DNA of 64,000 nt from Muricea muricata. Its lineage: Eukaryota; Cnidaria; Anthozoa; Malacalcyonacea; Plexauridae. The first letter of the stretch is position 1, and every line of letters begins with the position of its first letter. The notes below the pieces were generated by a model, which saw nothing but the letters and a program-made list of their open reading frames with translations, made no database searches and was not told the origin of the DNA. Location: NCBI GenBank assembly GCA_963855995.1, contig OY979722.1, positions 4,092,001-4,156,000 of the forward strand, written 5' to 3'. Position numbers and translations under genes: made by a program. Positions 1-61,209 of the stretch are shown here, in pieces.

Positions 1-213
1 TTAATTGTTATTGTTCTCCTGCCATGTTATGTTTTCTTTTATTGTTATTTGAATAAGTACAAGTTTGTTGTAGTTAATCTCTTTTTATTGTTATTTAAGT
101 TGTAATCTTTACAAATTCTTTTCAATAAATTGTTTACAAAATTTACATGTGACCCCTTTTAATTAAAAATTCAATTCCCATGGGAATTGAGAAATTAAAT
201 AAAAAAAATCCCC

Positions 214-331
214 CTACCCCGGCCAGCTCTCCAAATGCTACTTCCACCTAAGTAGAAGTACTTGTACATATACTACAAGTACTTCTACTTATTTACGGTG
301 GAAGTAGCACTCGGAGAGCTGGCCGGGGTAG
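214..331. mobile_element. 118-bp hairpin MITE (CTACCCC...GGGGTAG)
   Basis: The termini CTACCCCGGCCAGCTCTCC and its complement at 313-331 are inverted repeats. Almost the whole interior is also self-complementary: GTAGAAGTACTTGTA faces TACAAGTACTTCTAC around a loop of a few bases. The same element sits at the equivalent position in both P1 arms (10723-10840, 28391-28508), so it predates P1 formation. It has no coding capacity. Confidence 0.8.
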
Positions 332-2476
332 CGAGGCGAAGAGAAGACCAACCTTGCAAATGCTAATGCAAATTGCTAAGTTGATCTTCCCTAGAGAGCA
401 GCCGCGCATACCTAACAAATTAAGACAACAAACGTTAGTGACTTAAGTACTTAGCATGCAAATTTGATTCCCAAAGCCAAAATGACAAGTGCCCCCCGCT
501 GATCCTACCAACTGCCTGCCTGCCTCAGTTCTAAGCTGTCTTCCTCAGTCCTAAGCTCCTGCATTCCATTCGTTGCTTTCCCTTTCCTCACCATCGCACA
601 GTCACTCGCGCTGATAAACCCGCGTGCACCACCACCACCCCGACTGCCACCCAAATCCGAAAATTAAAAGAATTAAAATTTTGGTAAAGTATGCATTTTA
701 AATGTAATTTATTTGGACATTTCAGGTCAACGTAAACATAAAAGGTCAAATGTAAAAACACCAAAAGTCGTATATAAAAACAGGTGAGAATTCTTAAAAC
801 TCAATTCGCATTTTTTCCAGTCAGAATGATAATAGTCCTACAACTTAGTTGGATGTTGAGACTTACTCTTAGCTGTTTTGTGTGGAAGTGATGATAGATT
901 TTTGTTTTAAGCATACTTTAAAAAATTTTAAATCCTTTAATTTTAGCCTAACCCCATGCAACTTACACACGGCGCACACCCTCGCACTCCACACTTTTAG
1001 CTAATAAAATACGTTATAAACAAAAAAGCAAAATAAAAAGGTAAATTACGTTATCTCTAGCTGCTTAAACCCACTTACACTGAGAATTTCATAAATTTTT
1101 CACACGTAAAACCTTAACTGAAAGGGCATGGGCTTTTCGTTGTCTTAACTGGTCCGAAGTTAACATAAACTTGATAATTGTCGAAGTCTAAGGCTGGCTC
1201 AAATAAGCATGAGAATTATGCGAAGATAAAATCATTTTAAAACTTGAAACACAACGAAAGCTGTTCTCTCATCTATGGCAATGTAAATCCTTAGCTGTAG
1301 TTGACATGCATTTTTTAATGGCCTTATATTTGTTATGGTTTCTCTATTAGTTTAAAATTTAAAACTTTACCGCATTCCTCATACTTATTTAACCGAAACG
1401 CCTTCATGTGCATGGTACCTCGCAGCTGCTCTCAACTACTTCCGTAATTTGTTTTAGTGCACACAAACAATGACCTAATTGTTCCATTGTTCCTGCTTAA
1501 CAAAACAAACCCGAAAGCACCAAGATACTTATCATATTTGCAATCAAAGAGGATTATCGATATAATGTCAAGTTTCACCATGAACAAACTCATTACCGTC
1601 AAAACAAAGCAAGTTGTATTCCCATGGGAATTAAAAATGCGCAGAGAATAATGAATCCAACTGATTACGTATAAAAATACTGTTTAAAATACTGCATGAT
1701 GATGAATTTTAAGAGTAGAGTTAATAAACCTGAATTAGTGAACTCATTTTTTAAACGTAGAACGACGGAATACTAAAAATGCTTCAACTAAGTAGTGTTA
1801 TTAAGAAACTGCTTAGAAATATCCAAACTCAAATGCTAAAGGCATATTTTTAGGCGTTAAGTTACTGTAGATTCAACATTATATTTTTGCAGCTGATTTT
1901 TTAGACTGGAAAGTTGACTTCTGAACTCCTGTAACATTCTATGTAATTTTTTCCTTGGCAAGCATTCAAAATCAGTGCTGTTCAGTCTAAATTAATTTTT
2001 TTCAGTATTTGTTACCTTTTCTCTTAACGGTAAGCAATAAAATTTGCTTAAATCCTCTTTGATATCTCAATAATAAGTATCTTTTTTCTACTAACTTGTA
2101 AATTACCACTACTTTGTATTATAATGTCGTCCCATCTCGCTCTTGTGGATTGGTTATTGTTTTGACCAGGATCATTTATTCTGCACTTTTTTCTTACCAT
2201 CATCACCTTTTGCAATGACACAATGGAATCATTAGATAATGATTACAAATAATTTATAAACTGTAATATATGATAATTTATAAACTATAATATATAATAA
2301 TTTGTAAACTGATTTTTCAAGGCAAACTAAATTACTGTTTCTGTTAATACAAAGAACTTTTATAAAATTTTCACGGTAATTCCGTTAGGTATTAGGTATT
2401 CATGCAAACTATTTCTTAAAGGGAAGTGGCAACAATAATTTTTATTGTCTTATTTGAAAGAGACCTCAAAACAATA

Positions 2477-3061
2477 TACAGGGTGTATCAAAAAAAAGGT
2501 AACTTTGCAGTGCTCTAGCGCGTTCATTATACAATCTACAGAAATCATTCTTTCACATGCGGAAAGACCAGGCGTTTAGCTTTCGATTGTCATCATTTTT
2601 GTGAAATTTGAAGAAAGATTGGGCAAATACGAATTAAATGAAAATAGCCGGTCGAAATCGCATATTTCCACTTCTGAGCATTAGCGAATAAGCGCAGCGA
2701 ATAAGAAAAGAAAATTTCATTAATCATTTATCTGTCACGAGAAACAATTAACATCACTAATAAAATGCCAGAAGTTTACTACCTAAGCTAAAATTGGTCG
2801 ATTAATTTTGTAATTTAATTCCCTAATGGGATTAAATTTCAACAGATTTTCAATAAACTCCCAACGGTGAAAATATGCGATTTCGGCCTGCAACTTTTAT
2901 CGCATTTGTATTTGCTTGATTTTTCTTCAAATTTTATAAAAACGATGGCAATTAAAAGCTAAAAGCCTGGTCTTTCCAACTAAGAATTATTTCTGTATGT
3001 TAAATATTGAACGCCCTAGAACACATCAAAGTTCGATTACCTTTTTTTTACACACCCTGTA
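2477..3061. mobile_element. 585-bp Tc1/mariner-type MITE, TA target duplication
   Basis: It begins TACAGGGTGTATCAAAAAAA and ends with the complement TTTTTTACACACCCTGTA. It is flanked by TA at 2475-2476 and 3062-3063, the usual Tc1/mariner target duplication. The interior is also an imperfect long inverted repeat; the AATCGCATATTT motif near 2656 faces AAATATGCGATT near 2872. There is no transposase ORF, so it is a non-autonomous foldback derivative. A second element with the same termini but a different body lies at 48771-49578. Confidence 0.85.
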
Positions 3062-4933
3062 TAGAGTCTATTACAGAATTTTTATATCTGCCTTATTTGG
3101 TGAGATATTTTGACTTGAAATCTTTAGTTATCCGCCTCTTGTATATTTGTAGATATGCATGATACGTCACAACTGGGGTCACGCATTTTTTTTTCTTACG
3201 ACACAATGATTAATCTTCTCCATTAACCACACACATGGTAAGTGTTTCGGATTTCAGCACGGACTGAAAAGGTTTCACAAATATTTTATAGGTGGTAGGT
3301 ATTTTGGAGAAGCTTTGAATGGCTTATCCTTGTTGTGACGTCACCAAAACATTGTTAATGAGGTTAAAAAATAATCCGAGATGGCAGATAGTTCGATTAT
3401 TCAGGTACAATATCTCCCAAGTAAAACAGATATAAAAATTTTGTAAAAGACTTCTATATATTATTTTTAGAGTCTCTTTCAAATGAGACAATAAAAATTT
3501 TTGTTGCCATTTCCTTTAAAATCAGTTCAATGGTTTACAATTAAAGGTTCTGAACAGGACGTTATATTATCTGCATATAATTCACTGATCTCTAAAATTT
3601 CGGGTAAATGGCCCAAGTTTAGGTGAACCCAAGATGACAAAATTTGATGTGCAGCAACAATAAATAAATGTCATTATAGCTTCAAAATTGCGAGAGTGTT
3701 TATGTAAATTTGGATCATCAGTGCATATATAAATAGTGATAGACAATTTTGGTACCAAGTTATAAGTTCCTAAACTGTAACATTACTTATCAAAGTTAAA
3801 AAACTTATTAATAATCCATGAACAAAACACAAAGGAATCATGGCCGTAAAGGAGAATTTATTTGTGATGACACACACATAGATTTTCACAAAAGTTTTGC
3901 TTCGATTTTCTCGCAATTTTTTGTAAACAAACTGACAAGTTGTAGCATAAAAAGGTATTGAAGCTATTTAAAATACTCGCAGTTCGCGCTTTATCAGATG
4001 TAATAATATACAAGGAAATGTTTCTCGGCTTTGCTTGGTCAATTTCAGTGCAGTTAATCCCAAACAGGAGTGCAAAAATCTATAACAACAGTGCAAAAAT
4101 CTGTAATAATACAAGAACCAATCAAATTTGAGATAAGAAAACGGGATTGCAAATTTTTTAACAAAACAAATAAACATGGCGGGTGAACTTGGCGAGCCAT
4201 TGTGGTCAAATTTGGCTGGGTTTTTCAACTAAATGGATGCATTTAAACAATCTCAACAATGCGAAGTTCTTGATAGTATACACGTATTTATTTCGAACAT
4301 TTCCTTTTATATTATACTCGTGAGTTTTATACTCGTATACTCTTTTACGTTTGTACAACGCGACGTTTGGCCGTTTGAAACGGAAGTCGGAAGCCAATCA
4401 AATGAAAAAACCCAGACTGCTCTGTGACTGCGATTGCCATGTTATGTCATGTTTTGATGCATTTTTTATCAATTTTATTATAAAACATATCAAATTTGTG
4501 GAGTAGAAGCTTGTATAGGTTTTCAAATGATACAAAAGCGATGAAACTTGCAAAAAATCGTTTCTTACAAGTAAAACAGAATCAGTTTTGTTTATTTGGA
4601 ACAGTAACAATTATAACGGTAAACGTTGAAAAATGTTTGCGCTTAGTGGTTGGACGCAAATTGCTGTATAATCTGATAAAGCACTCTTGCTCCTGTTTCA
4701 TACATTACTAGAAACATTAAATCTCGATACATTCTTGGCAAAATGGTAGCAGCCGCGCCAACAAAATTAAAAACAATAGAAAGGGACTGGTACTTGAACT
4801 TCAATTTACTTATAGTTACCCCTCCCCCAGACGTTACGCCTCTGTCGTGTATGGTTAGAACTCTTGGACCCCCCCCCCGAAATTTACGATATTTCGACGA
4901 AAAACATGGGATTTGAATCTTTTATCAACTTAC

Positions 4934-5072
4934 ATTTGTAAATCTTGCATGTACTGTGGACCTCGGCTGTTTGTTTGATGCTGTATTCTCTGTTTGTCCA
5001 CCTTTTGCGTCCTTTTTGAGAATTAGGAAATATTTTATTAGATACTAGTGAAAATCTCAAAAATTGTAGCAT
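4934..5072 (-). pseudogene. candidate exon with strong splice donor near the P1 outer edge
   Basis: On the minus strand an open frame of 62 codons contains KGRKRWTNREYSIKQTAEV followed by HSTCKIY. The strong donor GTAAGT (complement at 4928-4933) lies just after the CKIY codons. The right-arm copy (about 34160-34298, plus strand) has the same donor and one changed residue. The acceptor side is weak. I do not recognise the protein. It lies on the same outward-reading strand as the other exon relics, so it may belong to the same decayed gene. This is a pattern call without a homologue. Confidence 0.3.
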
Positions 5073-5258
5073 TCATGTATCTAGAAAACTAAGTTATAAT
5101 ATACGTAACATTCCACGTGCAAGGAAATATGGCAATAAATTAGAATCTGTCTTGCTCGAAAGAAATGTAATTATGTAGAAAACTATTTTACACCCTCCCG
5201 AAATGTTTTTTAATTCTCGAAATATTTTGATTCCAAACAAATAAATTAGGGTAATTAC

Positions 5259-5345
5259 TCCGCCTGCCGTAGGCGAGGCGGAGTTTTAAATTCGCCCCGT
5301 TTCTGTTTTTTTTTTTTTATTTATTTTTTTTCGGTGTCAGAAGTC
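5259..5345. other. ACTCCGCCTGCC hairpin block
   Basis: ACTCCGCC, a GCC-rich loop and GGCGGAGT form a short hairpin followed by an A/T tract. The block recurs inverted in the P1 right arm (33890-33975) and again at 34976-35040, where it marks the left edge of P3. GGCAGGCGGAGT near 41848 is a possible matching opposite end. It could be the terminus of an older element buried in the P1 arm. The assignment is uncertain. Confidence 0.4.
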
Positions 5346-6086
5346 GGTGCAGCGCTCATGGGTGATACCGCTGGCACAAACCGCGTGAGCCGACCTAAAC
5401 ACGGCGTTTAAACTCAATTTCTAGCGAAATGTGTCAACAAAACACGCATTTAAACGTGCATGCTAGAACATCTAAACCGCAAGAAGGTTTTACGTGCAAA
5501 GATTCTCATGCAAAATGCTTTAAAACGACAAATTCCAGCGATGTGTCGCGGTGAAGTTTTGAGAGCGTGTTTCCGTCATTTTCTGGTTTATTCCTACTTT
5601 TAAGGAAATTTAGAAATTTCTACACAAGAATCAAACGCAAATTCTACTGAAATATCTACATACATACAAAATGAAGATCGGTGAAGGAACTTCGCAAAAA
5701 TATTCATTTTTGTACTTTCGAACGGCGTTTTTCCTATGCTTTTGACTGAAAACACGACGAACGACACTTGCCAGAGCAATTTGCGTGGCGCGTGGAATGA
5801 CGTGAGCACGGGGACACAAAAATTGAGGTTATTGAGTGCGAGTTCCCTATCTGTATATATCTGATCTGTGATACAGCTTCTTCTGAATCAGGAACAAGGA
5901 ACTTGCTCGGAGCATGTCGACACAAAGTGGTAGTTTCGGCGTTCCTCGGAATTCGTCGGTTTCCGACGCTGCTCGAAGATTTTCCGAATACTATTTTTTC
6001 AAAATTTTTCTCTAGCTCGAAGATTTTGCTCCTTGAAAGTCCTCTAAATTTTCATGCATCCTAACTTTGTTTTAAGGTAATATGCT

Positions 6087-6389
6087 TTATTTTCTATCAT
6101 TATTTGTAGCAAAGTACTTAGATTGTGCATAGAGATCGATTTTTGAGAGATCAGACTGGAAATAAGTACAATTTTCGAGTATTGTAAGTTTGTGCTTTCC
6201 AAGCATGGCTATGGTCGCATGTAAGATTAAGGCTACCGTTTTCAGTTGAAATTGGTTCGATAATAATACCATGAAATCCGCTATAGAAACTGAATGAGGT
6301 CTTGAATTGTTGAGATTGTCGAAGAAAGTATGCTGAGACAGTTCTATGTATAGAGTTGGTTCTGGTTCAAATTTATTGAAAAAAGGCAA
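6087..6389 (-). CDS. hypothetical 100-codon ORF in P1 arm
   Basis: This is one of the longest open frames in P1, on the outward strand of the left arm; the mirror copy is at 32842-33144 (+). The two copies differ by F-to-L changes at two positions. The older related sequence at 60930-61040 is clearly homologous at DNA level, but there the frame is broken and the residues are not kept, which argues against a conserved protein. There is no recognisable domain or signal peptide. It may be chance or a decayed exon. Confidence 0.15.
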   Translation of the reverse strand: MPFFNKFEPEPTLYIELSQHTFFDNLNNSRPHSVSIADFMVLLSNQFQLKTVALILHATIAMLGKHKLTILENCTYFQSDLSKIDLYAQSKYFATNNDRK

Positions 6390-6567
6390 TTTAATTTTAA
6401 TTTTGTGAATTTCGATTACAAAACATGCCTTGGACTGTCGACCAATTGATTTCGTCAGGCGATTACAGACTTGTGAGAGGAGGGGGGTAGCCTAATTACT
6501 AAAATGTAGTGAAAAAAGGACTTTCCATCTAATGGTGGGAGCAGGTTGGCGGGAACACTGGAGAATA

Positions 6568-6998
6568 AAGGTCCTGTCACAATGCAATTTTTCTTGCAAC
6601 TTGAAATGCAATTCTACTATTGGGAGATGTAAAATTGGCAAATGCAAGTTTCCATCACAGTTTGCTGGGGTTTTTTAACGTACCAAACATTTGTCACAAA
6701 TTTACTTAAGAGTAGATTTTCCCTGTAGCAAAAAAGATGGCAAATGTCGATTTTACCAGAGTGCATGGCAGTCTGAAATTGTTTAAAAAGGCAAATTAAC
6801 GTCTTTTGAAGAACAGACAGAAGACAATAGGTTATTTTCACACTTGTGTTAAAATTTCAATCCAGTAGCTTTGCTTCTTGTCATCTTTTCCCACGTATTC
6901 TTTCTTGATACCTGCAATGCATTCTGGTAAAATCGACATGTCGCCATCTTTTTTGCTACGGTGAATGCAAGGAAAAGTGCACCGTGTGACAGGGCCTT
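6568..6998. mobile_element. MITE with AAGG(C/T)CCTGTCACA termini, hosting a nested MITE
   Basis: The left end AAAGGTCCTGTCACAATGCA and the right end TGCACCGTGTGACAGGGCCTT are inverted repeats. A second complete right end occurs at 7041-7076, next to a duplicated GGTGGATAG..GGAGACGGAGCAG stretch, so the end region has been tandemly duplicated. A 233-bp MITE (6726-6958) sits inside. The mirror copy in the right arm is about 32233-32663. Confidence 0.55.
6726..6958. mobile_element. 233-bp MITE, TAGCAAAAAAGATGGC termini
   Basis: The terminal inverted repeats of about 38 bp begin TAGCAAAAAAGATGGC, end GCCATCTTTTTTGCTA and contain TCGATTTTACCAGA. Related copies are 12420-12647 in this arm, the mirror copies 26586-26813 and 32273-32505, and 34397-34629. 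Lengths cluster at 228-233 bp and the element carries no ORF. This is a repeated, non-autonomous family. Confidence 0.8.
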
Positions 6999-8394
6999 AA
7001 GGGTAAGAGGTGGATAGAGAAGGAGACGGAGCAGTTACAAGTGCAAGAAAAATTGCACCGTGTGACAGGGCCTTGAGGGTGGGAGGTGGATAGGAGGAGA
7101 CGGAGCAGGATGTGGGAGTCGTGCAAGGTCGGGATGTTAAAAAAGAACAAGGAATGTTATGTTTTTAATGCCTTTTAGAGTTTTCTTGAGGCAATTAAAA
7201 TTCAAACTGTCAAATCCAAACACTGTACAGAATGGCCGACTTTACGTGGTCTTTAGTTTTTACACAACCACTTGCATTGTTATCTTTTGCAGTTTGTTTA
7301 CCATTTCAGTTATCTATCTTCAATAGAATTCTTTGAAATTTGTTTGTAGATCGACAAAATGCTTAACCTCCTCTCAACAACTGGCAGATTATGAAAAATG
7401 AAATTGTTAAAGGTATTGGAATATTGCATGTACAATATTGAATATGGGACAATTTGGGACGGTATAATTTTGGACATGACGGTTTCATTCTCACCTAATT
7501 TGACGATTATTTTGTGGGTACACATACCGTGGAATCTCATGTGCTCCAGAAGCATTTTAATCTTAGAAAAAGTCAAATAATGATGAACTGTGTTTTAAAA
7601 GAAAGTTAGAATCTTATTTGGTTCAAATCAATTGAATTATGGCCCAAGAGTTCATGAAAACACATACAAAAGGCTTTCTTAAAAAACTGAAATATCAAAT
7701 CTAGCAATTTTATATGTTATGCCTCTAAACAACACAATTCTGTTTCTAAAAATTGGTACCCTACTAGACCTATATGCATGATTATACTAATTTGGACATA
7801 TTTATTTTTACCCATTAAAATATAAATTTGTGTTTAATCATTCGTGTTTGTCATTATTTGACTTTGTAATGTTGGTTAAACATAAGGAGATTGAGGTGAC
7901 TTTGCCAGAAACAAAAACATCCATTATTATACTAAAATTTCAATATATATAGCAATTAAAACTAACCACAGGAAATATATTTCTACTTTTTAATTGAAAT
8001 GTTTCTGTTATCTGCACTATATCATATTTTTGATAAAAAATTACAACACCTATGTTATTTCCTGGTTTACTATCTCAATCATCTTTTGTTTAAGCTGGCT
8101 TTGAGTGTTCATTTGAAAGTTTGGAAAGTTCATTTGAAAATCACAATAGTTCTCAATGTTATATTGGACCCTTTAAAGTTAAAAAAATACTTTGTAATAT
8201 TTTATACTACTGGTAATTTATCTTAGATACAGACTTTGTGATTTTGTACTAGAATGTTGACTTTCAAACTTTAAGATGAACTACTTATTAAGGACAAAAT
8301 AAGCTAGCATATTGTCTTTTGTTTACAAAGTGGAACTTGTTTGGAATTGAGATGAACTGATGCAGTTGTTCTTTAACTTTATCAATTAATTACA

Positions 8395-10081
8395 TATCTT
8401 AAATGAAAAAGAAAACCACAACTTGCCAAATAAATTCTGTGGGCTCTTTTTATTAGCAAAGAAAAGATGTGGCAGATGTAAGAATTTAAGAGTAAAAAAG
8501 TTTCCTTGGACTAAAAAAATTGACAGTATGCCAGATTTTCTAGATAAACAAGCAGTACAGATGTCGGCCAATAATAAGTATAAGTAACTACAATTTTTAA
8601 TTTTAAAAGTTTTCTATTGATGCCTGGATACAGTAAATACTTTACCAGAGTTCTTCGTATTACATCGACTTGAAAAAGTTTTAAGTCACATGAAGCTTTT
8701 AGTTGATACTATGCAATTTCAAATTTTACAGACTTCTTAATTAACATGCCAAATTTACCTTGTTAAACATAAGGTCTTTCCTGAGAAAAAGTAAAACTGT
8801 CTGGCATTATATGGAGTAGAATAATTTAAATTAGTTTGAGACTTTGATTTGATAACAATTTTGATTTGTACTATTTACAATACAAGTGACCGGGTTGTAT
8901 CGGATATACAAACCCAAGCTGAAGGCGAGATATCTGACATACACAGATGCGAATGTTGTAAATGGCTTGTGAAACTCGTCAATTTTATACATCAGATCTA
9001 TAGCAAAGTGATTTTGAAAATACCGATTCTGTAAGATGAGAAAATGATTTCTTTTGTGTTTCCTGTATGATTTATTACTTTATAAGTTTCTTAATTAAAA
9101 TTACAACATATTGCCTACTGGAACTTTTTATATTGTTTGGTTGTGGTGAATTTGTATTTTGGCAATTGAAATATTTCTGAATTTGTATGTGCATTTCCTT
9201 TGCTTCAGTTCAAGTTTACATTTCAAATATTCCACTTTGTAATACTTGTGTGGTAATAATAATATAAGAAAACAGGTTTACATGGCTCTTGAATATAGTC
9301 TTTTCAACAAGTAAGTAAAGATGAATTTATACTTCAAAGAGATATGTTCCTAACCTGACAATGGTACCTTCCAAAAAGACTAAATTTAAATTGATTCTTC
9401 GAATAAATTTTTTACTTTTCAATCCAAGATCAATCTAAGTTATGTATTTCTACTTTTATTTTGGTCTCTTTAACACTGAAACTATCAATTGTATATAAAG
9501 CAACTTCACTATCGAGTGACTTCATTAGTTGCTGGGCAAAGCCAAAGCATTGATTTTTCGGCTGTTTTCAATGAAAAATAGAATTTTGCCCAAAGTTATC
9601 TCAAATAAATTATCACAATTTGAACAAAAAGCTTCTGTTCTTGTGCCCACCAGAAAAATGAGATGTCTGAGACTTTCTTTGTATTTTTTTGCGAAAAATA
9701 GATCGCATGCACTGTTATGCAAAGAAAAGTGTAAGAGATTGGTTTCTGAAAAATGTCGTGCTACACACAATATTCTAAAAATGCTTGGTTTTTATTCTAT
9801 GTATTTTTGAATTTTTTGTTAAAAAAAATAAAGGTAGCAATGTTTAGTGCATTTCACATTGTCAGGTTAGAAACGCAATAAGAAAAATGTGGCTCCAAAC
9901 ATTACAGCTTGGTCAATTTGGAATTTATAAAAAAATCGTTTCTTCGTTGTTTTTCGACGTTTTGAAGGGTTGTTTCGAGTACAAAAAAGTATTTTTAGGA
10001 AGAATTATGTGCCCACGTTACATGTCTCAAAGCCATCAAAATTCGTTGGTAATTCGTGCATGTATTTTTTCTGACTTATAA
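8395..10081. other. unresolved ORF cluster in P1 left arm
   Basis: Several short open frames occur here on the plus strand. 8395-8587 includes RCGRCKNLRVKKFPW, 8849-9034 includes HRCECCKWLVKLVNF, 9529-9810 has 93 codons, and 9887-10081 has 64 codons. They are repeated with almost no change in the right arm, but at about 99% DNA identity this says little about selection. The Cys pairs are suggestive of zinc binding, yet I find no family match and no clear splice sites. Treat as candidate exon debris. Confidence 0.15.
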
Positions 10082-10722
10082 AAGCACAATTGATTAAAAA
10101 TAATATTTTTCTTTTGACAAAAATACCTTTCTTCTGTGAGGCTGGCTGTATTTGAAAAAGCGTTGGTCAACGCTCCACCAAAACTCGTGGGTTTTCTCCG
10201 GGTACTCCGGTTCTTCCCACTGGGAGAGTTGACAGGGTAGTTACATATGGTTATAAAAATGTGACTAACTTTTGAAAACCTTTCTACTTAGACTTGTTAA
10301 GCCTTCTCGTCATCTCTATCAGTTGCATGTTTTGAGCCACATGTTTTTCTTTGTAATTGTGAAACAACTCGTTATATGCTGGGTAAACCTTTGCAAAACT
10401 CTCAAAATTTATCACTTCAAGTTGTTTCATTGTTATAATATATTTTGAAGTATAAACATTTACTTACGTTGAAAAGACCCAAGTTTTTTAGGACTTTGTT
10501 CATTCACTTGTGTTATTGTTCTCTCTGCCATGTTCTGTTTTCTTCTGTTGTTATTTTAATAAGTACAATGTGTGGTAGTTAATCTCTTTTTATTGTTATT
10601 CAAATTGTATGTAATCTTTACAAATTTTTTCAATAAATTGTTTACAAAATTTACTTGTGACCCCTTTTTAATTAAAAATTCAATTCCCATGGGAATTGAG
10701 AAATTGAATAAAAAAAATCCCC

Positions 10723-10840
10723 CTACGTCGGCCAGCTCCCCAAGTGCCACTTCCACCTAAGTAGAAGTACTTATACGTGTAGTACAAGTACTTCTACTTA
10801 TTCACGGTGGAAGTAGCACTCGGAGAACTGGCCGGGGTAG
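10723..10840. mobile_element. 118-bp hairpin MITE, P1 left-arm copy
   Basis: This is the same element as 214-331, with a slightly altered left end (CTACGTCGGCC). The interior hairpin GTAGAAGTACTT..AAGTACTTCTAC is intact. The mirror copy is at 28391-28508. Confidence 0.8.
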
Positions 10841-11675
10841 CCGGCAAAGAGAAGACCAACTTTGCAAGTGCTAATACAATTGCTAAGTTGATCTTCCCTA
10901 GAGAGCAGCCGCGCGTACCTAACAAATTAAAACAACAAACGTTAGTGACTTAAGTACTTAGCATGCAAATTTGATTCCCAAAGCCAAAATGTCAAGTGCC
11001 CCCCGCTGATCCTACCAACTGCCTACCTGCCTCAGTTCTAAGCTGTCTTCCTCAGTTCTAAGCTCCTGCATTCCATTCGTTACCTTCACTTTCCTCACCA
11101 TCGCACAGTCACTCACAGCTGATAAACCCGCATGCACCACCACCACCCCGACTGCCACCCAATTTCGAAAATTAAAAGAGTTAAAATTTCGGTAAAGTAT
11201 GCATTTTAAATGCAATTTATTTGGATATTTTAGATCAAACGTAAACAGAAAAAGCTCGTACATAAAAACAGGTGAGAATTCTATTTAAAATTTGCTTGCA
11301 AAATATAAAACTTAATTCGCATTTTTCTTAGTTAATAGTATAGATCGATTTAGTTGATGTTGAAATCCTACTCTTAACTGTTTTGTTAGAAGTGACGACA
11401 GATTTTGGTTTTTAAGCATACTTTCAAAAATTTTAATTCCTTTAATAAACCTAATCCCATGCAACTTACACACGGCGCACACCCTCGCAGTCCATACATT
11501 TAGCTAATAAATTACGTTATAAACAAAAAAGCAAAATAAAAAGATAAATTACGTTATCTCTAGCTACTTAAACCCACTTAGACTGAGTTTTTGATTGAAT
11601 TTTCAAACGTAAAACCTTAGCTGAATGGGCATGGGCTTTTCGTTGTGTTAACTGTTCCGGAGTAAATATAAACCT

Positions 11676-46828: not shown

Positions 46829-46833
46829 CTTTT

Positions 46834-48770: not shown

Positions 48771-49578
48771 TACAGGGTGTATCAAAAAAAACGGAGCCCA
48801 TCTTTTGTGTCTAATTATTTCTAAATTACTGAAGCTTATAGTACAATTTTGCACTTGTTTTAAACCACGTTCTTTTCTCTTTCGAACAAGCCGTAATTCG
48901 TATTTTTACTCCCAGTAACGTATGTGCTATGACAAATTTAGTAAAAGCTATCGGTTTGAGATGCCCTCCAATTATGCAAATTCACTATGTCTTTCATGGT
49001 CGCCTGTTAAATTTTTAATTTTTTCGCTTATTACATAAATGGTATTTCTGTTAAACTTAATAAAACTTGTTATAAAGCTTTACAGAAGATAACGGACCGT
49101 TTACTTTAACAAAAACCTTGGATTTATGCCAAAATAATGATCGAAATTAGCGTTTTGTTTATCCGCGCGTACAGAATGTTGTCGAAATTGCATAATGTCA
49201 ATATTCATGTCGATACAAGCTTAAACTATCCGTTCGTAGTGCACGTTAACGGTCCGTTATCTTTTGTAAAGCTTTATAACAAGTTTTATTAAGTTTAACA
49301 GAAATACCATTTATGTAATACGCGAAAAAGGTAAAAATTTAACTGGTGACCATGAAAGACATAGTGAATTTGCATAATTGGAGGGCATTACAAGTCCATA
49401 GCTTTTACTAAATTTGTCATAGCACATACGTTACTAAGAGTAAAAATACGAATTACGGCTTGTTCGAAAGAGAAAAGAACGTGGTTTAAAACAAGTCCAA
49501 AATTGTGCTATAAGCTTCAGTAATTTAGAAATAATTTGACACAAAAGATGGACTCTGTTTTTTTTTATACACCCTGTA
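48771..49578. mobile_element. 808-bp Tc1/mariner-type foldback MITE, TA duplication
   Basis: It starts TACAGGGTGTATCAAAAAAA and ends TTTTATACACCCTGTA, with TA at 48769-48770 and 49579-49580. The halves are complementary over nearly their whole length (GGACCGTT at 49093 faces AACGGTCC at 49249). It shares ends, but not its body, with 2477-3061. It is present only in the right arm of P3. Confidence 0.88.
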
Positions 49579-49626
49579 TACTCAACTGAATTTCTATTTT
49601 TCTCTGTCTATTTTTCTATTTATCAG

Positions 49627-49690
49627 GATCGTAAATGAACCGTTTGAAATGGAACACCGTTGAGAAGATTAAAAAACGAACCTTTTCGAC
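49627..49690 (+). pseudogene. arm gene relic, exon b (P3 right arm)
   Basis: TATCAG/GATCGTAAATGAACCG opens the exon as in 44621-44685. The donor is mutated (GACGGACAA instead of GAGGTAAAA), so it could no longer splice normally. Confidence 0.5.
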
Positions 49691-49813
49691 GGACAATAAT
49701 TATCTAAAGTTTGCGTCATTTAGCTCTACGGGTGATTAATTTTGTAAACTATTTGCCGCCATTTGAAATGATTCTATTTTTACATATGTTACAAATTACA
49801 GTTTACATTGCAG

Positions 49814-49899
49814 ATACTCCAAACGTATATCGAGACTGCCACGTGACAATTGTGATATAAGAAGGTACAGCCAAAAAGGACTTTCAAGAGAATTTAGTG
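49814..49899 (+). pseudogene. arm gene relic, exon c (P3 right arm)
   Basis: Acceptor ATTGCAG is kept; the frame carries one stop (CACGTGACAATTGTGATATAA region) and ends EGTAKKDFQENLV. The donor GTG/ATAC is lost. Same 86-base length as the left-arm copy. Confidence 0.5.
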
Positions 49900-50753
49900 A
49901 TACAAAAACCAAATATTATGATATACTTAATATCATTGCAAATTCTCTATTACCTCCCCCCCCCCCCCCGCCAAGCGATTTGTAAACAAATTAATTAAGC
50001 CATCTGTCTGTGAAGCTCCTTTCTTAGCCTTTTTTATGGTAAAAATTATTTTTTGCAGTCCAGGTAATGAATAAGCCCTGCTCTTTTTAAAAGACCACAC
50101 CCACCCTATGGGGATTAATAGACAGTTTAGAATGATGATTATTATCATGTACCTAGTGCTGTATCAATAGTTTCTTTATTATTCTTTATAAACGTTATGA
50201 TAACTTACTTTAATTTCTTTTCTTTTTTCTTTTTCTTCAAAACCTCTTCTATTTACTGATGGACTATACTCTAAAAAAATCAGATTTCTCGTTCAAATTC
50301 AAAGGCGATTCCGAGCTTGGGACAAGAAGTCAGAAACTCTGACTCAACAAGTGTTTCCACATGACCTCTAAACTGCCTTTGATTTGAACTGCAAGTCTAA
50401 ATTTCTTGATCCTTGGAACTCAGGCCCTTGTTCAATTTCGACATGACATGTCCTCTCTTTGTCCTCTTCTTTCTCCAAGTACCGTTTCTGGGGTGTAGTA
50501 CCCTCTTCCTTCACACCATTCATTTTCTCCAGCTACCCCTCTTATCATGAGAATCCGCACGATGTGTGAAACAATTATTGGTAAAGGTGTAGGTAACCAT
50601 AGTATCATGTCCAAATTGATGAATTGATGACATTTATTTAAATGAATTATTTTTTACCTATTTGTAATAGTACCCATATAAAACCACTTCGTTTAAATAT
50701 TAATATTTGGAATAATGAAGCTATAACTGCGTATTAAATATCTGACATTATTA

Positions 50754-51578: not shown

Positions 51579-51907
51579 AAATTATAATATGTAATAAGTG
51601 AATATAGGCCATATGTTATTGTGGTATGCACGGAAAAAGTATGAATTTTATTGCATTATATATAGCTAGTATATACCTGAAAGCAAACTATTACAATTAA
51701 GTCACTAACTCTCTTAATGCACCGGATATATGGTTAATCCATAGGACTGCATTTACCACGTATATTCTGAAAACTATTAACAGTAGCTGGATGCGCGTTT
51801 TTATCCAGATATTATTTCAGACAAAATTTGTTCAAAAACCAACAACAGAAACCAAGGCATGGTTACTAAGCTAAACGCGATCAAAGGTACTGGTAAGTAA
51901 TTTCAAC

Positions 51908-52032
51908 ATGGCTTCCTTTTCTAACAAGAGTCAAAATATGAATATGGAAGATATTGGATGATATGGATTAGATATGGATGAGCTTTCTAATAATGAGGGC
52001 TTGAATATTCATGAACGACGGAATGTAGCGAG
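51908..52032 (+). pseudogene. candidate first exon in P2 left arm
   Basis: ATG then ASFSNKSQNMNMEDIG, an in-frame TGA, then YGLDMDELSNNEGLNIHERR NVAR and a GAG/GTAAAT donor. The mirror copy (59958-60146) has the same TGA but then differs by small indels and stays open longer. The acidic N-terminal style resembles transposase or nuclear-protein starts. Shared TGA means it was already inactive, or spliced around, before duplication. Confidence 0.3.
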
Positions 52033-54668
52033 GTAAATAGAATTGGTAATATTTTTTCTGAGTACAGACTGTACGATTACGTGGTTTGTTTATGAATTTC
52101 ACCAGTTTAATATACGTACGGATATTGGATGATATTAATAATATTAAAATGGTGCGCGGAGTCGCAGAGATACCAGATTTATTTCGAGTGTTGAACATGA
52201 TATCCTAAGAGTGAGTGCAGCGAACGAGGGCATTTCCTAGCACCATGTATTTTTCTGTTTATATAAACTACAGTGTTTTCTACTAATATAAAACATCCAG
52301 AAGCTATTAGTTGATTGTTTGAAAAGCGATAATTTTCACATGTCATGATCTCACATTTGAGATTATCAATTTTATCAGTGCTGGAAATCTTTATGAAGCA
52401 CTGTACTTTAAATAATAAGTATTGATAGACTATAGTCTGTCTAGTCACGAAGGTTAGTAATTCATTGCATGTAGTGATCATGTGATGGCAAACAGGCAGG
52501 TAAAAATTCGAGATTGTATTCAACCTACAATTATAGTCCTATATAAAACCCACAAGTAAGTCTCTTTTGACTTTATTTTGTAATCAGCCGGTATGGTCTG
52601 GAAAGTATGGCAACTAGCCACTCAAGAATTTTTGTTGTGTTCAGGTTTGCATACTTGGCTTAATACTGAATATGGTGAATATGGCCAGTGCTAGGTATCT
52701 AACATGCACACTGAAGTGCATTTGACACAGGTTTGCACACTGTACATTTGAAATTTTTGAAACCCGAGATCTTGTTAAAAACAGCCATACTTTCCAGTCT
52801 AGGTCATCAGTCTACAGTATCTGACTGCCTATCAAAGTAGATTGTTTGTACTGCACAGCCAAGATACAGTATTGGGCTGCAATTTTGATGTCTTCTAATA
52901 AATTTTCTATTAAATGTCTTCTATTAAATTGCCTATATTTTAGTCCCTATATATTTTCTATTAAGTATTTTAAATCTCAGCACATAATCTTTCCAGTCTG
53001 GACTGCAGGTTCATAAACATGAAAATTTTCGAACAATCAACATTATTGATTTCTTGTGGGTACAAGACTGTTGTTTGAAACATTTGAAAATGTGAAAATA
53101 ATGCAACCGACTGTGGCTAGTTTGAAAATAAGCTAGTTAAGTGGACTATTTTTTATCACTCCCTTTATACTATTCTTCTGCCCACGCCATCTTTTTGCAA
53201 CATTCAGTAACTGTCTTATTAAGGTTAAGTTAACAGTATCTAGCCATCCACAGAAGTTTAATGTTTATTTAATCAGAAATCTTTAGTAATGTTTGGTCAC
53301 TATATACTTTGGAACTTCAGTATTAGTAGAGAATAGCCAACAATAAGTCTCACTCATGTTGGGACCTATATGTTTTTGTCTCCTTGGCTGTGACAATGCC
53401 ATCATTCTAGCAGCTAAACCTGGGGCATAAAAAACGTTTGAAAAACTTCATGAGATTTAGTCTGTGCAGAGATTGTGCAGAATGGAAATATATGAGCATG
53501 CACCCCCCCCCCCCAATTATCAGTAATTTATATTTGATAATTATTTTTAGTCTCTGAGGCTGAGAAACAAATTCACACAATTGCCTGCATGGTAAATATT
53601 GTTTGGCCGGACCAACATTTCAGTCCTGTAAAGTATGCATTCACCAAAGGATCTGGCCTGCACAGTCATATTTGGACAATTCAGTCATCCACGAAAATGC
53701 ACAACATAAATTCCAACAAAACGTCTGGAAGCTGTTTTAGGAAAAGAAAGGAACTTTAAAAAGACACACAATGGATGTGCTGTAAAGCCATGGATTAAGG
53801 ATAAACAGATCTGCAACTGGATACGTGCCAGTCTCTCATGTTCCATGCTAATATACGACGTCATATCCACGAACCATGAAAGTGTTCATAAAATCGTCAA
53901 TTAATTGACATTTCTCTTTCAAATTCGTTATAAACTTTGGCTTGTGTACTCGCCAGTATACTGCGCATATGACCTGGTTTTTGTTGGCAGCATGAGCATC
54001 AGTAAAATAAAAAGGGATAACGTTTCCAGTGAATTTCGCGAAAAAATGCTGAAAGAATTTTCTTTAAAATTTGTTTTTGTTCCGACGCACATTTCGGTAC
54101 TGTTGATTTCTTTGTTTTTTAACCGTGTGCTTATGTTCATCTTGCTAGTCAAAATCAGGTCTAATTAAATGTTCATTTATCTTATACTAAATATACCGTA
54201 ATTAGTCAAACGAATACGGTTTTTGTTAATAATAGAATTTAATAAATAATTTCTTCTTATCTTGTGTTCAGATTTATTTATAAATCAAAATACAATATAA
54301 TAATCTTATTACGAAAAACAGTGCATGTACCATATATTTTTGCTAACCTCATACATATATTATTCAATTTTCAACATACCTTTTTCTCGCTACTAGCCTA
54401 GTATTCACTCTTAAGCGCTTAAGATAATATTCTCCCTCTCCAAAATGCATGGTTACATAAATGTAGTTGTATACAAGACCGAATTTTGGGAGAGGTGCGC
54501 GCCTCCTCTGGGAATAGGAGAGGTGCACACCTCCCCAAAAAAACCCCACATTCCCTTACAATTTCTCCAAAATCTGGCCTTGGTTATATGTTAACTCGGT
54601 TTTTGCATGCATGCCACTTGATTTCTTATCTTTACTTCAAAGTTCAAATGGTCATTGTGGCCATGCAT

Positions 54669-55683
54669 GTGTCTTTAGTATTGGAAAATGTTATTATAAG
54701 GATTGAAATTATTGTTTTCAGAGATTTTATGACTTTGGTTAAATAGGAACAAATTTTGTCATTGTTTAACCAAGCCTATTATTACACGAATTATTATGTA
54801 TTTAGTGTTTGAAAATGTTATTATAAGGATTGAAATTATTGTCGTTTTCAGAGATTTTATGACTGGTTGAATAGGAACAAATCTTGTCATTATTTAACCA
54901 AGCCTATTATTACACGAATTATTATGTGTTTAGTGTTTGAAAATGTTATTATAAGGATTGAAATTATTGTTTTCAGAGATTTTACGACTTTGGTTAAATA
55001 GGAACAAATTTTGTCATTATTTAACCAAGCCTATTATTACACGAATTATTGTGTCTTTAGTGTTTAAAAATGTTATTATAAGGACTGCTGTATTGTTTTC
55101 TGAGATTTTATGAGTTTGGTTAAACATGATCAAATTTTGTCATTATTTAACCAAGCCTATTATTACACGAATTATTGTGTCTTTAGTGTTGGAAAATGTT
55201 ATTATAAGGATTGAAACTATTGTTTTCAGAGATTTTATGACTTTGGTTAAATAGGTATAAATTTTGTCATTATTTAACCAAGCCTATTATTACACGAATT
55301 ATTGTATCTTCAGTGTTGGAAAATGTTATTAGAAGGATTGAAATTATTGTTTTCAGAGATTTTACGACTTTGGTTAAATAGGAACAAATTTTGCCATTAT
55401 TTAACCAAGCCTATTATTACACGAATTATTACGTATTTAGTGTTTGAAAATGTTATTATAAGGATTGAAATTATTGTTTTCAGAGATTTTATGACTTTGG
55501 TTTAATAGGAACAATTTTTGTGATTATTTAACCAAGCCTATTATTGCACGAATTATTGTGTATTTAGTGTTGGAAAATGTTATTATAACGGCTGCTGTAT
55601 TGTTTTCAGAGATTTTATGAGTTTGGTTAAACGTGATCAAATTTTGTCATTATTTAACCAAGCCTATTATTACACGAATTATT
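54669..55683 (+). repeat. 127-bp satellite, 8 units, forward block
   Basis: The unit runs GTTTGAAAATGTTATTATAAGG, through TTTTCAGAGATTTTATGAC and CAAATTTTGTCATTATTTAACC, to TATTATTACACGAATTATT. Starts recur at about 54672, 54800, 54927, 55054, 55181, 55308, 55436 and 55561. The period is not a multiple of three, so the overlapping 64-codon frames are not genes. Confidence 0.93.
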
Positions 55684-57421
55684 GATCATGTTTAATCAAA
55701 GTCATAAAATCTCTGAAAACAATACAGCAGTCCTTATAATAACATTTTTAAACACTAAAGACACAATAATTCGTGTAATAATAAGCTTGGTTAAATAATG
55801 ACAAAATTTGATCATGTTTAACCAAACTCATAAAATCTCTGAAAACAATACAGCACTAACAACAGCCCTTACAACAACATTTTCCAACACTAAAGACACA
55901 ATAATTCGTGTAATAATGGGCTTGGTTAAACAATGACCAAATTTGCACATATTTAACCAAAGTTATAAAATCTCTGAAAACAGTAACTTCAATCCATATA
56001 ATAACATTTTTAAACATTAAAGACAAAATAATTCGTGTAATAATGGGCTTGGTCAAACATTGACAAAATTTGTACATATTTAACCAAAGTTATAAAATCT
56101 CTGAAAACAGTAACTTCAATCCATATAATAACATTTTTAAACATTAAAGACAAAATAATTCGTGTAATAATGGGCTTGGTCAAACATTGACAAAATTTGT
56201 ACCTATTGAACCAAAGTCATAAAATCTCTGAAAACAATAATTTCAATCCTTATAATAACATTTTCAAACACTAAAGACACAATAATTCGTGTAATAATAG
56301 GCTTGGTTAAATAATGACCAAATTTGCACATATTTAACCAAAGTTATAAAATCTCTGAAAACAGTAACTTCAATCCTTATAATAACATTTTTAAACATTA
56401 AAGACACAATAATTCGTGTAATAATGGGCTTGGTTAAATAATGACAAAATTTGTACATATTTAATCAAAGTTATAAAATCTCTGAAAACAGTAACTTCAA
56501 TCCTTATAATAACATTTTCAAACACTAAAGACACAATAATTCGTGTAATAATAGGCTTGGTTAAATAATGACAAAATTTGCACATATTTAACCAAAGTTA
56601 TAAAATCTCTGAAAACAGTAACTTCAATCCTTATAATAACATTTTTAAACATTAAAGACACAATAATTCGTGTAATAATGGGCTTGGTTAAGTAATGACA
56701 AAATTTGTACATATTTAATCAAAGTTATAAAATCTCTGAAAACAGTAACTTCGATCCTTACAATAACATTTTCCAACACTAAAGACACAATAATTCGTGC
56801 AATAATAGGCTTGGTTAAATAATCACAAAAATTGTTCCTATTCAACCAAAGTCATAAAATCTCTGAAAACAATAATTTCAATCCTTATAATAACATTTTC
56901 AAACACTAAATACATAATAATTCGTGTAATAATAGGCTTGGTTAAATAATGGCAAAATTTGTTCCTATTTAACCAAAGTCGTAAAATCTCTGAAAACAGT
57001 AACTTCAATCCTTATAATAACATTTTCCAACACTAAAGACACAATAATTCGTGTAATAATGGCTTGGTTAAACAATGACAAAATTTGTACCTATTTAACC
57101 AAAGTCATAAAATCTCTGAAAACAATAATTTCAATCCTTATAATAACATTTTCAAACACTAAAGACACAATAATTCGTGTAATAATAGGCTTGGTTAAAT
57201 AATGACAAGATTTGTTCCTATTCAACCAGTCATAAAATCTCTGAAAACGACAATAATTTCAATCCTTATAATAACATTTTCAAACACTAAATACATAATT
57301 CGTGTAATAATAGGCTTGGTTAAACAATGACAAAATTTGTTCCTATTTAACCAAAGTCATAAAATCTCTGAAAACAATAATTTCAATCCTTATAATAACA
57401 TTTTCCAATACTAAAGACACA
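55684..57421 (-). repeat. 127-bp satellite, 14 units, inverted block
   Basis: Same unit in opposite orientation, starting abruptly at 55684 (ATTATT/GATCATG). About 14 units against 8 in the forward block. Variants of the unit (CAGTAACTTCAATCC versus CAATAATTTCAATCC) alternate in 56200-56850, suggesting a higher-order two-unit repeat. Confidence 0.93.
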
Positions 57422-59957
57422 TGCATGGCCACAATGACCATTTGAACTTTGAAGTAAAGATAAGAAATCAAGTGGCATGCATGCAAAAACCGAGTTAACA
57501 TATAACCAAGGCCAGATTTTGGAGAAATTGTAAGAGAATGTGGGGTTTTTTTGGGGAGGTGTGCACCTCTCTTATTCCCAGAGGAGGCGCGCACCTCTCC
57601 CAAAATTCGGTCTTGTATACAACTACATTTATGTAACCATGCATTTTGGAGAGGGAGAATATTATCTTAAGCGCTTAAGAGTGAATACTAGGCTAGTAGC
57701 GAGAAAAAGGTGTGTTGAAAATTGAATAATATATGTATGAGGTTAGCAAAAATATATGGTACATGCACTGTTTTTCGTAATAAGATTATTATATTGTATT
57801 TTGATTTATAAATAAATCTGAACACAAGATAAGAAGAAATTATTTATTAAATTCTATTATTTACAAAAACCGTATTCGTTTGACTAATTACGGTATATTT
57901 AGTATAAGATAAATGAACATTTAATTAGACCTGATTTTGACTAGCAAGATGAACATAAGCACACGGTTAAAAAACAAAGAAATCAACAGTACCGAAATGT
58001 GCGTCGGAACAAAAACAAATTTTAAAGAAAATTCTTTCAGCATTTTTTCGCGAAATTCACTGGAAACGTTATCCCTTTTTATTTTACTGATGCTCATGCT
58101 GCCAACAAAAACCAGGTCATATGCGCAGTATACTGGCGAGTACACAAGCCAAAGTTTATAACGAATTTGAAAGAGAAATGTCAATTAATTGACGATTTTA
58201 TGAACACTTTCATGGTTCGTGGATATGACGTCGTATATAAGCATGGAACATGAGAGACTGGCACGTATCCAGTTGCAGATCTGTTTATCCTTAATCCATG
58301 GCTTTACAGCACATCCATTGTGTGTCTTTTTAAAGTTCCTTTCTTTTCCTAAAACAGCTTCCAGACGTTTTGTTGGAATTTATGTTGTGCATTTTCGTGG
58401 ATGACTGAATTGTCCAAATATGACTGTGCAGGCCAGATCCTTTGGTGAATGCACACTTTACAGGACTGAAATGTTGGTCCGGCCAAATTTGTTTCTCAGC
58501 CTCAGAGACTAAAAATAATTATCAAATATTAATTACTGATAATTGGGGGGGGGGGGGGTGCATGCTCATATATTTCCATTCTGCACAATCTCTGCACAGA
58601 CTAAATCTCATGAAGTTTTTCAAACGTTTTTTATGCCCCTGGTTTAGCTGCTAGAATGATGGCATTGTCACAGCCAAGGAGACAAAAACATATAGGTCCC
58701 AACATGAGTGAGACTTATTGTTGGCTATTCTCTACTAATACTGAAGTTCCAAAGTATATAGTGACCAAACATTACTAAAGATTTCTGATTAAATAAACAT
58801 TAAACTTCTGTGGATGGCTAGATACTGTTAACTTAACCTTAATAAGACAGTTACTGAATGTTGCAAAAAGATGGCATGGGCAGAAGAATAGTATACAGGG
58901 AGTGATAAAAAATAGTCCACTTAACTAGCTTATTTTCAAACTAGCCACAGTCGGTTGCATTATTTTCACATTTTCAAATGTTTCAAACAACAGTCTTGTA
59001 CCCACAAGAAATCAATAATGTTGATTGTTCGAAAATTTTCATGTTTATGAACCTGCAGTCCAGACTGGAAAGATTATGTGCTGAGATTTAAAATACTTAA
59101 TAGAAAATATATAGGGACTAAAATATAGGCAATTTAATAGAAGACATTTAATAGAAAATTTATTAGAAGACATCAAAATTGCAGCCCAATACTGTATCTT
59201 GGCTGTGCAGTACAAACAATCCACTTTGATAGGCAGTCAGATACTGTAGACTGATGACCTAGACTGGAAAGTATGGCTGTTTTTAACAAGATCTCGGGTT
59301 TCAAAAATTTCAAATGTACAGTGTGCAAACCTGTGTCAAATGCACTTCAGTGTGCATGTTAGATACCTAGCACTGGCCATATTCACCATATTCAGTATTA
59401 AGCCAAGTATGCAAACCTGAACACAACAAAAATTCTTGAGTGGCTAGTTGCCATACTTTCCAGACCATACCGGCTGATTACAAAATAAAGTCAAAAGAGA
59501 CTTACTTGTGGGTTTTATATAGGACTATAATTGTAGGTTGAATACAATCTCGAATTTTTACCTGCCTGTTTGCCATCACATGATCACTACATGCAATGAA
59601 TTACTAACCTTCGTGACTAGACAGACAATACTTATTATTTAAAGTACAGTGCTTCATAAAGATTTCCAGCACTGATAAAATTGATAATCTCAAATGTGAG
59701 ATCATGACATGTGAAAATTATCGCTTTTCAAACAATCAACTAATAGCTTCTGGATGTTTTATATTAGTAGAAAACACTGTAGTTTATATAATAAACAGAA
59801 AAATACATGGTGCTAGGAAATGCCCTCGTTCGCTGCACTCACTCTTAGGATATCATGTTCAACACTCGAAATAAATCTGGTATCTCTGCGACTCCGCGCA
59901 CCATTTTAATATTATTAATATCATCCAATATCCGTACGTATATTAAACTGGTGAAAT

Positions 59958-60146
59958 TCATAAACAAACCACGTAGTCGTACAGTCTGTACTCAGAAAAA
60001 ATATTACCAATTCTATTTACCTCGCTACTTTCCGTCGATTCATGAATATTCAAGCCCTCATTATTAGAAAGCTCATCCATATCTAATCCATATCATCCAA
60101 TATCTTCCATATTCATATTTTGACTCTTGTTAGAAAAGGAAGCCAT
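59958..60146 (-). pseudogene. candidate first exon in P2 right arm
   Basis: 63 codons from ATG to stop with one internal TGA at codon 18. After NEGLNIHE this arm reads STESSEVNRIGNIFSEYRLY, whereas the left arm reads RRNVAR. The difference is a pair of one-base indels. Confidence 0.3.
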
Positions 60147-60243
60147 GTTGAAATTACTTACCAGTACCTTTGATCGCGTTTAGCTTAGTAACCATGCCTT
60201 GGTTTCTGTTGTTGGTTTTTGAACAAATTTTGTCTGAAATAAT

Positions 60244-60458
60244 ACCTCTTTTATCTTAACCAACGCTGTGCCAATATCGTCTTTCATTTCAGTAACCTAT
60301 TTCCTAATATTAAACTGAGAACCACATGCAGCTGCTTCCATACCAACTGTGAATAGAGCCGGATTGATGACAGCTTTACCTATTAAATTTGTTGGAATTA
60401 GGCATAATTGCATCCGGAGAAACGCACAAATTTTGTGCGTTTGACACCTTTTTTCGGC
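60244..60458 (-). pseudogene. short coding relic at P2 right end
   Basis: The minus strand gives LIPTNLIGKAVINPALFTVG then MEAAACGSQFNIRK, a stop, and VTEMKDDIGTALVKIKEVLF running into the palindrome arm. About 57 codons with one stop. Looks like degraded protein-coding sequence of the element. No family recognised. A small hairpin (AAACGCACAAATTTTGTGCG) lies beside the terminus. Confidence 0.35.
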
Positions 60459-61209
60459 CGTGCGGATTCTCATGTTGTAAGTTATTCGTTTGGCGTGGTT
60501 ACTGGAGATTCATTCAGCTTGAAAATTACATTATATGATAACTACAGTGAAACTCGCTTTTATTCATTTATCTATATTTAATTCTACATTGTCGTTAACA
60601 GCCTTAGTTAAGTTATTATATATTACAGTTTATAAATTATTCATAACATTGGTATCTAATGATTCCGTTGCGTCATTGTAAAAGGTGATTGCAAGAAAAG
60701 AGAATGCACGAGATCCTGGACGACAAGACCCGACAAATTTTTTTAATTATTTTGTCCCTTAGTCTATAGAAATGAAATGTTTTATTTTCCATCCTAATCT
60801 ATTATTTTCTGTTTCCATCCTAATTGCAGATTCAAAGCTAACCCCCTCTCCCATTATGGAACAAGTCTGCAATCAGTAGATAAATCGATTTGTCAACAGT
60901 TTTTAGGCTAATATCGGCCCTTCGCCAAGCTTGGAAAGCACAAACTTTATACTCCAATACTGTACTTAATTGCAATCCGATTTCATAAAAAATCGTTCTT
61001 TATAAGCAATCTAGATAGTATACTACAAATACAGATAGAAAATTAAGCATGTTACCTTTCAAAAACGAAGTTACTATCAATAGAGTTGTGAACTTGTTAT
61101 CCTTTTCTCGTGCACAGCAAAAATTTTGAAAAAAATTCGGAAAATTGTTGAGCACTGTCGGGCACCGAGGCTTGCGACTTTCTGTCGACAAATTCCGAGC
61201 ATGTTTTGC

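Follow-up and report, generated by a model that had tools for sequence, protein, structure and literature searches.

What kind of element makes a near-perfect palindrome of 29.5 kb, and why is the neighboring DNA mirrored along with it? The question is raised by P1, a palindrome at positions 4875-34357 of a 64-kb stretch of the Muricea muricata genome (G000:C7:4092001-4156000, hereafter the window; the genome assembly comprises 453 Mb in 74 contigs). The original prediction, made from the letters of the window, saw here either a new foldback class or an ampliconic region. Our analysis points elsewhere. We consider it reasonably likely that P1 moved by Helitron2-type rolling-circle transposition and that its broken arms were repaired in place, through outward copying of the opposite arm followed by end-joining.

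When the window was compared against itself, the outer arms of P1 (4875-13551 versus 34357-25674) proved 99.4% identical and the inner arms (14721-19704 versus 25233-20280) 97.6% identical, with a spacer of ~575 bp. The palindrome and its right-hand surroundings are laid out as follows, with ^ marking an insertion point:

4875-5253 (+): host flank adjoining the left end of P1 and, judged from an empty-site paralogue, the original side of the copied segment
5257-5284 (+): left 5' terminal hairpin, belonging to the 5' terminal sequence (LTS), of Helitron2-like type by its fold and by the target TNAT^T at distinct junctions
5257-19704 (+): P1 left arm, of A type inside ~12.5 kb
19705-20279: asymmetric P1 centre, holding a 37-mer with 260 genome occurrences
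20280-33975 (-): P1 right arm, bounded on the outside by a second LTS
33979-34357 (-): mirrored flank, the left host flank copied inverted, 379 bp
34358-34373 (+): filler at the joint, ~16 bp; its exact limits are our reading, ungapped matching beginning at 34364
34374-34975 (-): putative left-over outer piece of the P1 right arm, P1 positions ~6985 to 6380, in outward orientation
34976-41881 (+): Helitron2-like element inserted T^T at P1 position 6380, with its LTS at 34976, a minisatellite at 40941-41314, the inverse of the 5' repeat at 41847-41858, a hairpin at 41861-41876 and the end CTTGT
35050-40032: later 5-kb insertion inside the preceding element

The paralogue that identifies the original flank (C6:10378221-10378762, 71%) is colinear with window 4712-5253 and thus spans the boundary at 4875. 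Because Pfam gave no family above its cut-off in 17 P1 frames, taken from 98 left-arm frames of at least 50 amino acids, P1 is probably non-autonomous. Across the 30 frames submitted in total, one family exceeded its cut-off. A P-type transposase RNase H domain lies at 37339-37548 (-), within the 35050-40032 insertion (10 frames in that round); as the sole P-type transposase domain found, it belongs to the Helitron tail at 34976-41881 and not, as had been predicted, to a P element inserted in the older palindrome P3.

P1 is one member of a large family. The 37-mer from its centre has 260 exact occurrences in the genome. With window 15100-19200 as the query, the best 36 places (of 2748 candidates, 36 were scored) show 98-100% identity; the P1 outer end gave 40 long matches at 99-100% identity (40 of 2631 candidates scored) and one further match of 60 bases at 83%. 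Six P1 copies were read whole, namely the window plus five of the seven best places outside it, picked by inner-arm similarity and named C6, C7, C8, C9, and C12; all six are palindromes, and P1 copies as read are ~0.4% apart. The genome search thus did not return, in the copies read, single, non-mirrored copies without shared ends, and the predicted high-copy family of very large palindromes with common outer ends, plus P3 as an older relative, was borne out.

The ends of P1 reveal its affinities. The outer end of each arm reads T^ACTCCGCCTGCCGTAGGCGAGGCGGAGT, and the LTS hairpin begins ACTCCGCCTGCC at a target TNAT^T. Among 23 distinct 14-mers across LTS junctions, T stands at position -5 in 23 of 23, A at -3 in 20 of 23, and TT at -2 and -1 in 23 of 23, the upstream bases reading T-W-A-T-T with few exceptions. 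The 5' hairpin (5257-5284) has a DNA fold of -12.7 kcal/mol (z = -4.1), and a second z score for the 5' hairpin is -3.4. The small element at 34976-41881 starts with the P1-type 5' end and finishes GGCAGGCGGAGTGAACGCCTTAGCAGGCGTCTTGT^T, and T follows (C/T)TTGT at all five 3' ends read. The terminal inverted repeat is asymmetric, with ACTCCGCCTGCC at the 5' end and GGCAGGCGGAGT 23 bases before the 3' end. Genome-wide, we count 590 occurrences of the 3' terminal sequence (RTS) and 486 of a 44-base form of the LTS. Of these 486, the 43 on C1 and on C2 to 13.2 Mb, a span also covered by 100 listed RTS, were tested: in 25 of them a same-strand RTS follows no more than 6.5 kb downstream, against 1 in which an RTS is arranged in any other way.

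Empty sites agree with this insertion point. The paralogue of the window flank (71%) reads GGGTAATTCCAAG, where the window reads GGGTAATT^ACTCC, and in a second repeat empty copies (L016 and L013) read CTAATTATAA; both kinds of empty site are uninterrupted at the point of insertion. That second, short repeat, CTAAT^TATAA, is an insertion hotspot in which the LTS enters at the same base (L016, L037-L040, L050, L074, and L029). No direct target duplication of the foldback type was seen at the ends read. Helitron2-type elements, as passages of PMC5148889 describe them, have asymmetric inverted repeats, terminal hairpins, and insertion at TNAT^T (or TT); we assign the P1 ends to the Helitron2 type on sequence.

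Two complete copies carry both termini. At C7:10977060-11004612 and C12:4291430, one end is an LTS and the other is arm position 6380 joined to the small element, which finishes at the RTS and is followed by T. The identical 6380 joint occurs at C7:5750542, where the RTS lay beyond the stretch read. The shared joint indicates that the nested small element supplied the P1 terminator. At the ends of P1 copies with two LTS, no 3' terminator was seen.

At a number of loci, DNA just outside the element or arm is mirrored on the other side. In all five pairs with both ends fetched, flanks differ among loci yet are mirrored within each, over 479, at least 1546, 394, 584, and at least 1552 bp. The mirrored flank is 379 bp in the window, ~1,090 bp at C6 (beyond which identity falls to ~91%), and at least ~150 bp at C8:11.75-11.78 Mb, and at C9 a mirrored stretch of 1,222 bp belongs to a nested transposon. 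A tally of 19 loci gave 9 mirrored (a fraction of this sample and not a share of the genome), 3 with an LTS and the joint of 6380 to the small element, 2 of the read-through kind (C8:9578034 and C8:2689491), and 5 without a second end found; considering whole-read loci only, 3 of 6 are mirrored. Left out of the tally were L041-L044, L046-L049, and the LTS at C9:9529360, which are single or facing ends whose own partners were unfetched; among them, the facing ends L041/L042 of two neighboring palindromes are mirrored and L043/L044 are unmirrored. Two neighboring P1 palindromes at C4:5567947 and 5596156 have outer ends facing across 28.2 kb, with mirrored flanks in common, and look like part of a larger inverted structure.

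The two read-through loci deserve a closer look. C8:2689491 has two LTS with flanks unmirrored with respect to each other and was first taken as a counterexample to mirroring. If mirroring is what produces two-LTS forms, however, this locus should derive by read-through from a donor that is mirrored. In fact, 202/202 bases at its right end are identical to C8:11783258, which repeats the stretch inverted 29.5 kb away, and with this likely donor found the counterexample was dropped. The right flank of C8:9578034 matches the left flank of C8a (C8:10260324-10289734) at 98.3% over 1,569 columns, small element included, as a read-through copy would be expected to do.

When did the copying occur? One locus, C9, fixes the timing for itself. 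Its right arm has, at position 5706, a 2.1-kb insert with a 9-bp target site duplication, TACAAAAAT, followed by the rest of the arm, the LTS, and the flank beyond. The left end has its joint at 5706 too, then, in inverted orientation, 1,222 bp from the start of the insert, and then other DNA. Between the arms there are 0 substitutions across 5706-12457 (6.75 kb) and 101 from 12458 inward (gaps uncounted). We read C9 as one copied tract of ~8 kb that postdates the landing of the insert, for the left end mirrors a transposon already inserted in the arm and the copying was therefore later than the insertion there.

At two further loci, remnants apparently stem from the far end of the original arm. 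In the window, the mirrored flank and filler are followed by the outer piece of the P1 right arm (~6985 to 6380) and the small element as far as its RTS, in the orientation of the original right end. At C8a, the DNA past the mirror is the small element from 40162 on, 99.7% identical to that of the window. Both leftovers may be what remained across a break that an LTS-RTS copy had suffered. At C9a (C9:2253578-2282212), the target repeat resumes past the mirror ~24-57 bp beyond the insertion point, as would be expected had little of the target been lost.

In the outer arms (6380-12400), the within-locus difference at the six loci is 0.27, 0.00, 0.17, 0.18, 0.18, and 0.40%, against a between-locus mean of 0.39% (range, 0.23-0.53). 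Arms thus drift following copying events and are not constantly kept alike, so that the prediction of homogenization lasting until insertions break the pairing was half right. At 76 diagnostic sites, derived from the window, C9, and C8 (independent tests being C6, C12, and C7 only), like arms give way to A/B near 12.5 kb in the window, C9, and C8, a shared step that is probably inherited. The C6 arms are A-type outward from ~16.8 kb and A/B further in, C12 has A in both arms at almost every diagnostic site, and the right arm of C7 is a mosaic.

A mechanism drawn as a whole from this anatomy would run as follows. Replication would start at the hairpin LTS, pass through the palindrome, and stop at an RTS where one had been acquired from a nested small Helitron2-like element; the Rep-helicase doing so would be the genome's own. 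The chromosomal palindrome would then break, or a fork would switch template, and the broken arm would pair with the opposite arm and be copied outward past the arm end, 0.38 to at least 1.55 kb into neighboring DNA. The new end would be joined, presumably by end-joining, to whatever remains on the other side. The usual product would have mirrored flanks, outer arms that are alike, and two LTS but no RTS.

Several observations weigh against this scheme. The in-place timing is proved at C9 only, the window and C8a resting on leftovers, and elsewhere the copying may have taken place during insertion. The mirrored DNA of C9 belongs to a nested transposon and not to the host flank. C8a lacks the target repeat's other half. 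Matches to the empty-site paralogue are not convincing either for the window filler (100 of 2000 shuffles do as well) or for the flank beyond the window RTS (607 of 2000), which leaves the original insertion in the window with its two sides unmatched. No LTS-RTS copy gave a match to both sides of one empty site, and the complete LTS-RTS copies read number only two. The 3' stem of the RTS is predicted with a fold z score of -1.3, equaled by 23 of 200 shuffles. Rep domains are present in the genome, with no Rep gene tied to the P1 LTS. As for the sample, the five pairs were found through high scores at both ends, which favors mirrored loci; seven single ends are biased the opposite way, toward unmirrored loci, and for 5 of these 7 the partner end was not found within the 1.2 kb fetched.

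Mirroring might alternatively accompany transposition itself, with the palindrome strand joined by its 5' end and an incomplete 3' half folding back, priming on the joined arm, and extending through the LTS into the target, so replacing the 3' terminator. Such an origin is in keeping with outer arms that are closer within a locus than the between-locus mean at 5 of 6 loci, with the continuation of the target repeat ~24-57 bp on at C9a, and with Helraiser, which according to passages of PMC4778049 needs the LTS but not the RTS. Yet the C9 mirror contains a transposon inserted in the arm, which makes the copying later there, and the window and C8a retain apparent pieces of the original RTS-bearing arm past the mirror. 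On the evidence of these three loci we gave it up as the origin of all mirrored flanks, and we hold it to be unlikely. Equally doubtful is a terminator-less Helitron that primes on its own palindrome, its 5' end joined to the target and the folded second half copying out from the joined arm into the target, so that with every insertion the outer arm is made anew and host DNA is mirrored; if true, repeated rounds would grow the palindrome outward in strata (inner arms ~98%, outer ~99.6%, flank 99.5-100%).

An assembly artefact, one arm having been walked twice by the assembler, could explain mirrored stretches that are 100% identical (1647 columns at C11a, C11:12180339-12209794, and 685 at C8a, each including ~100 bp of element), and arms of P1 size approach or exceed typical accurate read lengths. 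We nevertheless judge it improbable: the arms differ genuinely, at 133 positions in the window and 101 at C9; single-base differences or gaps distinguish the mirrored stretches at the window, C13 (C13:2352200-2381650), C9a, and C11b (C11:2525684-2555138); the C9 mirror stops within a transposon and joins other DNA; and one mirrored flank recurs at another locus. Still less probable is an ordinary foldback DNA transposon with long terminal inverted repeats and a cut-and-paste transposase, which would account for the palindromic overall form and the sharp common ends and is already contradicted by flanks mirrored over hundreds of bases and by the existence of LTS-RTS copies. With ends of Helitron2-like 5' type, a P1 end whose partner in small relatives is a 3' end of another kind, and the lack of direct target duplication at the ends read, the predicted new foldback class is not upheld. 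Arm-to-arm copying, seen at C6, C12, and C9, would also be expected of an ampliconic region homogenized by gene conversion like the palindromes of sex chromosomes, but with 260 centres interspersed over many contigs, discrete transposon ends, and no Pfam family in the 17 P1 frames, the suggestion of an ampliconic gene region is scarcely credible. Rolling-circle movement with in-place repair remains our preferred account.

The distribution of the family is uneven. Taking the first 100 P1 centres in contig order, none lie on C1 or C2 and two lie on C3, which puts 258 of 260 beyond C3; matches set the sizes of C1, C2, and C3 at no less than 123.8, 68.7, and 59.9 Mb. P1 centres (2 of 260) and the 40 scored copies of a second palindrome, P2, are thus nearly or wholly absent from C1-C3, the three largest contigs (at least 252 Mb). 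Helitron Rep domains (150 scored of 352 candidates) fall largely on C1-C3, with ~123 of the 150 there by our own count, and small Helitron2-like ends are present on C1-C3 and also on C6, C7, C8, and C12. Germline-restricted (or gall-midge E) chromosomes were considered and rejected on two grounds: the 49 CCT matches, on C2, C4-C7, and C10-C14, include C4-C7 and C10-C14, and on the mitochondrial contig C74 (19,292 bp) cox1 runs opposite to the block cox2-atp8-atp6, beyond which comes nad1, a gene order that we take to be octocoral-like. A nuclear copy of mitochondrial cox1 lies at G000:C1:38414782-38416095 and has one stop as translated.

The window holds further palindromic sequence:

6-2271 (+): P0, an old relative of the P1 arm segment 10511-13559, one arm, 70-88% identical to P1
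42572-50489: P3, a palindrome that is old and diverged, with homology to inner P1, by self-comparison
51807-60247: P2, a palindromic family of its own, centred on 127-bp tandem repeats

The arms of P3 (42572-46319 versus 47223-50489) are 76-78% identical in long stretches and related at 69-81% to inner P1 (15280-20221). The idea of one ordered unit at different ages therefore holds for P1 and P3 and only in part for P0, a single arm cut by the window edge and so not callable as a palindrome. P2 has 3.8-kb arms of 96.4% identity, and the window self-comparison reported no similarity of P2 to P1. All 40 P2 copies scored (of 284 candidates) are 98-100% alike and lie on C4-C16, and by eye P2 is flanked by a 7-8 bp direct duplication (TTTTATC). 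At the right edge of the window, an open frame of 331 codons (62055-63047, -) gave no Pfam family.

The P1 family would show, in nature and in replicate, one way in which long palindromes may grow, a process otherwise studied locus by locus. Seeded at hundreds of sites, copying across arms would extend palindromes into their neighbors with readable start and end points, such that many independent events may be dated and compared in one genome, and rolling-circle transposons would be linked to inverted duplication of host DNA.

How does P1 compare with known systems? Minisatellites are a feature of Helitron2/DINE/HINE-type elements, and the small member in the window has one. With Helitron2/Helentron and the non-autonomous DINE/HINE elements P1 also shares the asymmetric terminal inverted repeat and TNAT^T or TT target, along with a 5' terminal hairpin and a predicted 3' stem; it differs in palindrome arms of >13 kb, in often having two 5' ends without a 3' end, and in mirrored flanks. 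Foldback and Galileo elements have very long inverted repeats, as does P1, which differs from them in its ends and in showing no direct target duplication. In Helraiser, passages of PMC4778049 describe an essential 5' end and a dispensable 3' end, with read-through capturing neighboring DNA; this captured DNA lies past the 3' end, whereas the DNA copied by P1 is mirrored outside the 5' end. The palindromes of the Y chromosome undergo arm-to-arm gene conversion (compare PMC3723533), a likeness to P1, which in contrast is interspersed, has no gene in the frames tested, and shows copying past arm ends. In yeast and man, template switching and break-induced replication are known to produce inverted duplications (compare PMC3907307, PMC7467729, and PMC10766186), and foldback inverted duplications resemble P1 in copying DNA inverted via the pairing of inverted sequences; in the P1 case, a single transposon family seeds the events at several loci, and where an end was reached they stop after ~0.4-1.2 kb. 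The literature searched, of limited coverage and hence no proof of absence, gave no account of palindromic Helitrons or of mirrored flanks at many loci. The individual parts are thus of known kinds, while their combination and scale look new.

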